A stretch of DNA of 64,000 bases from Rhodobacterales bacterium (lineage in GTDB: Bacteria > Pseudomonadota > Alphaproteobacteria > Rhodobacterales > Rhodobacteraceae), in the NCBI GenBank assembly GCA_002748265.1, contig PDRY01000017.1, forward strand, positions 1-64,000, read 5' to 3'. Each line of letters opens with the position of its first letter. Position 1 is the first letter of the stretch. Of this stretch, positions 1-1,331 are shown piece by piece. A program made the position numbers and the translations under genes. Under the pieces are notes generated by a model. The model was not told where the DNA came from. It did not search any database and was given only the letters and a program-made list of their open reading frames with translations.

Positions 1-111
1 GAGTGATCGCCTGAGGCGATTGCCTGGTGATCCCGAGACGCACCAGCAAGGGTGTGTCGAAGATCATCGAGTGATCTGACACTGGCCTGACGGCCGGACC
101 AGGACAAACAG
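1..111. other. left-edge stretch, unassigned
   Basis: No gene can be named here. One plus-strand frame is open from base 2 to a TGA at 77-79, so this could be the last codons of a plus-strand gene cut by the window edge; another frame is open only from 15 to a TGA at 69-71. A small dyad (atcgcc-tga-ggcgat) lies at 6-20. The strong plus-strand terminator that follows implies that some plus-strand transcript ends here. Confidence 0.2.
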
Positions 112-142
112 AAGGCCGCTCCCGAAAGGGGGCGGCCTTTTG
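112..142 (+). terminator. Rho-independent terminator
   Basis: A GC-rich stem (ggccgc-ccc, gaaa loop, ggg-gcggcc) is followed by tttt. It would end a plus-strand transcript entering from outside the window. Confidence 0.75.
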
Positions 143-189
143 TGTGGGCGGGGTGTTGTGGGCGCGGCTTGGGGGCCTTGAGCCCCCTG

Positions 190-254
190 CGTCCCGCTGG
201 GGGGCTCTGCCCCCGGCCTGCGGCCGCCCCCGAGGTATTTTGGCAAATAAGAAG
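190..254 (+). repeat. intergenic repeat, copy A
   Basis: This copy has a ggggctctgcccc hairpin, a ggcctgcggcc hairpin and the core cgaggtattttggcaaataa then gaag. The same core occurs at 46445-46470 and 53057-53086, and the copy at 53 kb also has both hairpins. Here it lies in the gap between the terminator and the promoter of the 358-831 gene, next to a G-rich tract at 254-261. Confidence 0.75.
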
Positions 255-298
255 GGGGGGGCGGAAAGGAAGGGAGAAGATCTAACCAGGATCAACGC

Positions 299-333
299 TT
301 GACTATTTTGATCCAGAAAACTATCGATATAGT
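299..333 (+). promoter_or_regulatory. putative promoter and dyad of the RHH-RAMA gene
   Basis: TTGACT at 299-304 is a good -35 box; TATCGA at 322-327 is a weak -10 box at 17 bp spacing. It overlaps the inverted repeat ACTAT-cgat-ATAGT (320-333), a candidate operator. Three GATC sites lie at 279, 290 and 310, about one and two helical turns apart. GATC is common in this genome, so the spacing may be chance. Confidence 0.45.
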
Positions 334-357
334 GATAATAGTAAAAATAGGTAATTC

Positions 358-831
358 ATGATGGGCGAAGATACACGCACAATTGAAATCGACCTTGATG
401 TCCATCGCGCCATCGAAAGTGCGCGTCGAAGTCTTGGTGAGAGTGAGTTGTCCATCCTGAAGCGGTTGCTGTTCAGTAAGGCAGTGGAGCGGGACAACGA
501 TTCAAGCAGGCCGGAGGAACTGGACCGTTCAGGTATTAACATCGGCGCCGACTGGTCGAATCTTGGAGTAACTTTGCCTCACGGCACGCTCTTGAAGATG
601 ACCTATAACGGTCAGGTTCAGCGCGGCCAGATCAACGATGGTCGTTGGGTGATCGGCGATGTCGTGGAGCACAGCCCGTCGGGTGCAGCCTGCGCGATTG
701 CAAGGACGCGGACGGGCGCAAGCGTGCAACTGAACGGTTGGCGCACATGGAGTGTCAAGAGACCGGGGGATGTTGACTGGATTTCGTTGCAGGCCCTGCG
801 TAAGGTCGCAGCGACAGGGGGGGAGCTGTGA
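358..831 (+). CDS. SeqA-N-like / RAMA-domain protein, putative methylated-DNA reader
   Basis: This 157-residue protein has two recognisable parts. Residues 8-41 (TIEIDLDVHRAIE then LGESELSILKRLL) follow the pattern of the SeqA N-terminal ribbon-helix-helix and oligomerisation segment, including the GES and IL(K/R)R positions. Residues 70-147 (GVTLPHGTLL, then DGRWVIG, HSPSGAACAIA, NGWRTW) fit the RAMA domain, which is found with restriction and adenine methylases and resembles the DNA-binding C-terminal domain of CcrM. No methylase or nuclease motif is present. It is therefore inferred to bind DNA, perhaps in a methylation-dependent way. It is convergent with the S10 cluster and shares a terminator with it. 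The start is ATG 358 or ATG 361, with a weak Shine-Dalgarno. The 5' region is more AT-rich than its surroundings, which hints at transfer. Domain calls are by eye. Confidence 0.7.
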   Translation: MMGEDTRTIEIDLDVHRAIESARRSLGESELSILKRLLFSKAVERDNDSSRPEELDRSGINIGADWSNLGVTLPHGTLLKMTYNGQVQRGQINDGRWVIGDVVEHSPSGAACAIARTRTGASVQLNGWRTWSVKRPGDVDWISLQALRKVAATGGEL

Positions 832-864
832 CGCCGAGTAGCTCCTGAGATGCTTGCAACGAAA

Positions 865-893
865 AACCCCCGCCAGATTGCTCTGGCGGGGGT
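865..893. terminator. bidirectional terminator
   Basis: A perfect 13-bp stem (aacccccgccaga / tctggcgggggtt) with a ttgc loop has A-rich flank on the left and tctattt on the right. It can end both the plus-strand RHH-RAMA gene and the minus-strand ribosomal transcript after rplP. Confidence 0.85.
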
Positions 894-917
894 TCTATTT
901 GTCACCTTCGGACTGGC

Positions 918-1331
918 TTACCAGTCTTCGCGGACCACAGTACGGGTCTTGATCGGCAGCTTCATCGCTGCGAGGCGCAGGGCCTCGATGGCGATCTCTT
1001 CGCTGACGCCGTCGATCTCGAACATGATCCGGCCAGGTTTCACCTTGGCGGCCCAGAAATCAACGGAACCTTTACCTTTACCCATCCGAACTTCGACCGG
1101 CTTCGAGGTCACCGGCAGGTCGGGGAAGATGCGGATCCAGACGCGGCCCTGACGCTTCATGTGACGCGTCATGGCCCGACGGGCGGCTTCGATCTGGCGA
1201 GCGGTGATCCGCTCCGGTTCAATCGCTTTGAGCCCATAGGTGCCAAAGTTCAGGTCAGAGCCACCTTTGGCCTGACCGTGAATCCGGCCCTTGTGCATCT
1301 TGCGGAACTTCGTGCGCTTCGGCTGAAGCAT
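918..1331 (-). CDS. rplP: 50S ribosomal protein L16
   Basis: This 137-residue protein has the full usual length of L16. It begins [16 protein letters not shown] and carries the family signature region around [17 protein letters not shown] and [20 protein letters not shown]16 binds 23S rRNA near the A-site tRNA and the peptidyl transferase centre. It follows rpsC by 12 bp. It is the last gene of this transcription unit: a strong hairpin follows and the next gene is convergent, whereas in most bacteria rpmC and rpsQ follow rplP directly. Those genes are not in the window to the left. Confidence 0.97.

Follow-up and report, generated by a model that had tools for sequence, protein, structure and literature searches.

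The gene at the start of the 64-kb window (the whole stretch of 64,000 nucleotides analyzed here, which begins at the contig start) encodes a SeqA-N/RAMA protein that is best explained, with a probability of roughly 0.6, as a mobile, autoregulated, and oligomerizing DNA-binding protein with the layout of SeqA and another head. A RAMA domain gripping the DNA backbone would take the place of the GATC-reading domain of SeqA. Dimers or oligomers would form via the SeqA-N domain and would line up along the promoter of their own gene on YACT repeats arranged in tandem every 9 bp, and the bound dimers would keep expression low. The genes may move on prophages, phages, and plasmids, presumably with a role in the element that carries them, and may become established at certain loci, the S10 ribosomal operon being one. 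The features of the gene and its surroundings are collected in Table 1.

Table 1. Positions of the SeqA-N/RAMA gene, its domains, and its flanking signals in the window.
Feature	Position	Strand	Basis
Promoter-like TTGACT-17-TATCGA	299..327	+	loose script match, 8/12; a stricter promoter scan found none
Operator-like array	329..351	-	9-bp units CCTATTTTT, ACTATTATC, ACTAT...
AGG, weak candidate ribosome-binding site	349-351		judged by eye
SeqA-N/RAMA protein gene, 157 aa	358..831	+	ORF; homologs align along whole length
SeqA-N-type (ribbon-helix-helix-like) N-terminal domain, residues 6-44	373..489	+	hhalign to SeqA, VIA-align, profile search
Linker, residues 45-64	490..549	+	low model confidence; length differs among homologs
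RAMA domain, residues 65-155	550..822	+	VIA-align; conserved S106, S108, N126, W128, R148
Intrinsic terminator-like hairpin	865..894	+	between SeqA-N/RAMA gene and convergent rplP

The original prediction had joined a SeqA-type N-terminal segment to a RAMA-like domain resembling the C-terminus of CcrM, and structure and profile comparisons bore out both assignments. The N-terminal domain was aligned to SeqA by hhalign with an E value of 1.2e-11, and residues 6..40 of the model were matched to SeqA (1xrx) using VIA-align. The same program matched residues 67..155 to 7ydw, 7ydt, and 6pbd, which identifies the RAMA fold and includes the C-terminal domain of CcrM. The pLDDT of the linker is about 50, and residues 46-48 and 53-57 fall below 50. 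Against Pfam, the window protein alone gave values of 0.0012 for SeqA_N and 0.012 for RAMA, both under the curated cut-offs, and the SeqA_N profile also gives weak matches at E<=1 in 11 of the 14 genomes that served as controls. Since the evidence from the single sequence was thin, a 44-row family alignment (A4) was built, and it forms one continuous pattern over the full length. At the family level the SeqA_N domain is supported by hhalign and by profile searches. When the family profile was used to search 398 genomes of the phylum, 36 N-terminal-only matches appeared, and all eight of those retrieved contain SeqA_N followed by the SeqA C-terminal domain, above the cut-off. A chance likeness of the N-terminus to SeqA was rejected on the basis of hhalign, the profile searches, and this reciprocal test. 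The SeqA C-terminal domain (PF03925) was matched by the same eight retrieved SeqA proteins, used as the control, and by neither the window protein at E<=10 nor the 44 members at E<=0.01.

The DNA-contact residues given for CcrM in the accessible text of PMC6787082 are S315, H317, N330, W332, and R350. The corresponding positions in the window protein are S106 (S in 39 of 44 members, T in 3), S108 (S in 44/44), N126 (N in 29 and D in 15 of the 44), W128 (W in 43/44), and R148 (R in 39/44). The phosphate-contact residues of CcrM are thereby found in the RAMA domain of the family, with S108 at the position of H317. A RAMA-only profile (A6) run against the PDB gave matches that are apparently unrelated, mostly antibody light chains, and no PHROGs family matched the window protein at E<=1. 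Monomer models of the N-terminal domain contain two helices and no strand. Sequence searches of the PDB, taken to E=10, matched no chains of classic ribbon-helix-helix proteins, an absence that is no proof.

SeqA of E. coli (PF17206 and PF03925) shares the homologous N-domain and the same order of oligomerization domain, linker, and DNA-binding domain. Its limits are described as 1-33 for oligomerization, 34-64 for the linker, and 65-181 for DNA binding in the accessible part of PMC6225831; those of the SeqA-N/RAMA protein are 6-44, about 45-64, and 65-155. The matching limits therefore suggest the plan of SeqA with another head, and oligomerization through the N-terminus would be expected from homology. 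Unlike SeqA, the protein carries RAMA in place of PF03925, its family is sporadic and often found on mobile elements, no Dam was found in the host (a genome 88% complete), and YACT repeats take the place of GATC at the promoter. Compared with the C-terminal domain of CcrM (6PBD), the methylase domain is missing and RAMA is joined to SeqA-N. The RAMA domain of MPND (7YDW) is eukaryotic and stands beside an MPN domain; it also binds histones, according to the available text of PMC9963953. The Pfam families DUF2924 and DUF4357 are matched by 20/44 and 16/44 members, respectively. Two plasmid members are named DUF2924 and one is named DUF4357, the DUF4357 match of the window protein falls in its RAMA-like part, and the records mention no SeqA-N part. 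DUF2924 is also mentioned in the Wolbachia literature, as far as the accessible text goes. The ribbon-helix-helix DNA binders MatP and TraM are listed among the nearest known systems.

The family is sporadic and often located on mobile elements. With the window protein as the query, matches were obtained in 3/61 relatives, in 8/394 genomes of the Rhodobacteraceae, and in 11/385 of the class, the genome of the window being included in every count. One phage record and 5 plasmid records also matched; some of all these matches are RAMA-only or broken. Scans of named genomes located 45 loci and scans of viral contigs 8, and the full protein was found in 4 further viral contigs. The genes occur in a phage genome, on plasmids, and in viral contigs. 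Profile A4 at E<=1e-20 matched 1/61 and 14/366 genomes of two orders. The tree is patchy over hosts, for example with a Psychromarinibacter row beside Rhizobium and Ensifer (support 98/80), and is therefore consistent with horizontal transfer. The window protein lies on a long branch (1.83), a point against the main explanation. From the 200 neighbors within two genes of 54 loci, as called with a simple script, 95 were hand-picked and compared with Pfam. The best 25 of 105 families include phage integrase (3 neighbors) and the terminase gpA, portal, and Clp protease families (2 each); among the best 25 of 148 PHROGs are integrase, terminase, portal, and head maturation protease. A constant partner gene was sought and rejected, the widest neighbor clusters spanning 4 loci among the first 25 clusters listed.

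Five of 12 new members from one order, inferred to be Sphingomonadales from a contig that one of the genomes has in common with L074, begin directly 3' of uvrB (L140, L141, L142, L144, and L146), and the identity of uvrB was confirmed with NCBIfam in three of these loci. The fixed chromosomal site after uvrB therefore suggests domestication. A relative at L017 (1096-1866, minus strand) has about 100 extra residues after the RAMA part, possibly a winged-helix domain. At L018 (minus strand, match 1501-1770), the segment that precedes the RAMA-like domain differs from SeqA-N.

In the window, the contig provides only 357 bases upstream of the gene. On its 3' side lies a convergent ribosomal operon, whose first gene (918-1331) is named rplP from its sequence and from the same gene order in L049 and L054. 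The SeqA-N/RAMA gene adjoins rplP of the S10 operon in three Rhodobacteraceae (window 1-1331, L049 7992-8891, and L054 7559-10376). The L049 and L054 copies are inside the operon, the latter between rpmC and rplP together with two more ORFs; these two cluster in the tree, and the window copy falls elsewhere. The location beside rplP may mark a hot spot for insertion, or the copies may be old and evolving fast. No Rfam family matched positions 1-2000 of the window at the gathering threshold.

A new observation is that about half of the family genes are preceded by YACT ([TC]ACT) repeats with a spacing of 9 bp. The array in the window starts at the downstream end of the promoter-like site, and AT-rich arrays, for example TACTACTATTTTTACTA and AGTACTATAGTACTATTAG, occur in family upstream regions. 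The analysis covered 60 upstream regions, each no longer than 150 bases, and 29 of them contain a pair of YACT on one strand with 9-bp spacing; 200 dinucleotide shuffles gave 0.7 on average and never more than 5. Other spacings were found in 13 (3 bp; shuffle mean 1.6), 12 (12 bp; 0.8), and 7 (8 bp; 0.7) of the 60 regions. If spacings of 8 or 9 are allowed, a pair appears in 32/60 regions and three or more units in 11, and 28/60 promoters are without the repeat. The pattern was derived from these same 60 promoters, and therefore 15 members retrieved later were used as the test set. The 9-bp pair is present in 5/15 of these (mean 0.13, maximum 3 for 500 shuffles), and 9 of the 10 misses belong to a divergent set from one order. 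The array overlaps the promoter in 15 of the 17 regions with a promoter-like site, a count made without a control set. ACTCC replaces ACTAT with the 9-bp spacing kept in the subgroup L061, L062, L074, L031, and L029. Comparison by eye of operator type with protein residues gave no clear covariation.

The 60 regions omit L006, L007, and L052 (duplicates of loci that were retained); L010, a distinct locus with the repeat that was taken for a copy; L002, L003, and L011 (genes already entered as L040, L077, and L036); L005 and L012 (other-strand matches, the repeat absent by eye in both); L008, L009, L014-L019, and L025 (partial, broken, or RAMA-only, with L017 the longer variant); and L034 and L035 (on the contigs of L027 and L031). 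L077 and L080, which are without the N-terminus, were kept. The held-out set omits L126 (a near copy of L125), L120 (partial), and L098 (on a contig equal in length to that of L074).

All 14 exact YACTANNNNYACTA sites (11 loci) in the 734,703 bases of L020-L080, a set in which two contigs are counted twice, lie <=102 bp upstream of the gene. Nine other whole genomes with the gene contain 0-3 exact sites each, 15 in total, of which 3 are at the family promoter (G281, G537, and G769) and 12 are elsewhere. Exact YACTATNNYYACTAT occurs once in the genome of the window, at the promoter of the SeqA-N/RAMA gene. A wider regulon was considered and rejected, with 3 matches in this genome at <=1 mismatch and also 3 for a control pattern. 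The protein probably switches off its own promoter.

The N-terminal ribbon is the likeliest source of base-specific contacts with the repeats, at about even odds, and RAMA is a somewhat less likely one. MPND and CcrM RAMA domains grip the DNA backbone with no base contacts in the accessible text of PMC9963953 and PMC6787082, and the N-terminal ribbon is therefore favored as the sequence reader. Against the main explanation, the N-domain of SeqA serves oligomerization and its C-domain DNA binding in the available portion of PMC6225831. SeqA also requires sites two to three turns apart, unlike the 9-bp repeats found here (PMC5145175, accessible part). The exposed ribbon positions of the window protein would be T8, E10, and D12, which are acidic and argue against reading of DNA by the ribbon. 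DNA-binding ribbons of ribbon-helix-helix proteins carry polar or basic residues, and SeqA-N is not itself known to bind DNA.

The proposal that the protein reads adenine methylation is not supported by the published RAMA tests, the promoter motif counts, the methylase search, or the sporadic and mobile family; such reading is conceivable, at a low probability. RAMA heads dimerized by SeqA-N would then recognize N6-methyladenine or hemimethylated sites, and could further make transcription, replication, or defense of the element depend on the state of methylation or on the passage of a fork; both are unlikely. This explanation draws on the layout of SeqA joined to a methylase-associated domain and on the proposal of RAMA as a 6mA reader (PMC11037411 and PMC12839542, in the parts available). 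An earlier study did report binding of 6mA by MPND, as cited in the accessible text of PMC9963953, but that text itself describes 6mA as without effect on DNA binding by MPND RAMA, and CcrM crystals with hemimethylated and unmodified DNA are described as alike (PMC6787082, available text). In 4/54 loci a methylase motif is found no more than three genes away, a neighbor at a fifth locus (L044) clusters with the methylase-like neighbor of L078, and N6_Mtase was matched by 3 of the 95 chosen neighbors (among the best 25 of 105 families). In Rhizobium phage RHph_X2_26 (L020 5024-6543) the gene directly follows an annotated DNA adenine methylase gene, and one plasmid copy is oriented divergently to a methylase that is accompanied by a specificity subunit. 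In about 49 of the 54 loci, however, neither motif nor clustering showed a methylase among the nearest three genes. Searches of the 88% complete genome of the window for Dam-type (PF02086) and type I (PF02384) methylases gave no match, with E. coli matched as the control for PF02086; a separate CcrM is present (L094 685-1809). GANTC occurs in 27/60 family promoters, above random windows of the same loci (mean 14.1, maximum 25 of 200), but at the level of dinucleotide shuffles (mean 24.9). GATC occurs in 20/60, compared with means of 37.5 for random windows and 25.5 for shuffles. The excess of GANTC and deficit of GATC relative to random windows are attributed to the AT-rich base composition. 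The held-out regions contain GANTC in 8/15 and GATC in 6/15, counted without a control, and GANTC is absent from positions 1-400 of the window. The GATC sites at 279, 290, and 310 were considered as a SeqA-like cluster and rejected as ordinary, since the window holds 759 GATC and 23 triples within 31 bp. This total corresponds to 11.9/kb, compared with about 3.4 expected from our composition estimate, in a genome where no Dam homolog was found.

An element-borne coating protein is a slightly weaker candidate than a methylation reader. RAMA would bind non-specifically and SeqA-N would spread the protein, so that the element is shielded or silenced in a nucleoid-like or anti-restriction role, and the promoter repeats would merely tune its level. 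The non-specific binding of MPND and CcrM RAMA (PMC9963953 and PMC6787082, accessible text), the phage or plasmid context of many members, the lack of a regulon in the sites counted, and the few exact sites per genome are consistent with this role, but the array of sites speaks for specific binding. An antitoxin of a toxin-antitoxin pair, with a ribbon-helix-helix N-terminus and autoregulation, is highly improbable. Autoregulation through tandem repeats is typical of antitoxins, VAPB_antitox was matched by 5/44 members at E<=0.01, and a same-strand ORF lies within 60 bp downstream in 15/54 loci. However, no partner or adjacent toxin recurs among the first 25 neighbor clusters listed, the next predicted gene is convergent in 24/54 loci, and the window copy is followed by a terminator and convergent rplP, with its short upstream side running to the contig end. 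The autoregulated protein with the layout of SeqA remains the preferred reading.

No description of the SeqA-N and RAMA layout was found in the accessible open-access literature, in agreement with the original prediction, which knew of no described protein of this kind in the group. SeqA homologs are described only in some Dam-bearing proteobacteria in the available part of PMC4285127. A second SeqA-type system outside Dam bacteria, in which RAMA heads held in pairs by SeqA-N bind hemimethylated DNA born of replication, is improbable. If it existed, GANTC or element-specific 6mA would be bound after fork passage in alphaproteobacteria and phages, and promoters or origins of mobile elements would be sequestered. 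The small proteins and their candidate operator make 6mA reading by bacterial RAMA domains testable with simple binding assays, and the methylase and SeqA-N/RAMA genes of phage RHph_X2_26 are a natural pair for such tests. The SeqA N-domain is joined to a different DNA-binding head in alphaproteobacteria, in further groups, and in phages, which indicates that the layout of SeqA is modular and movable.
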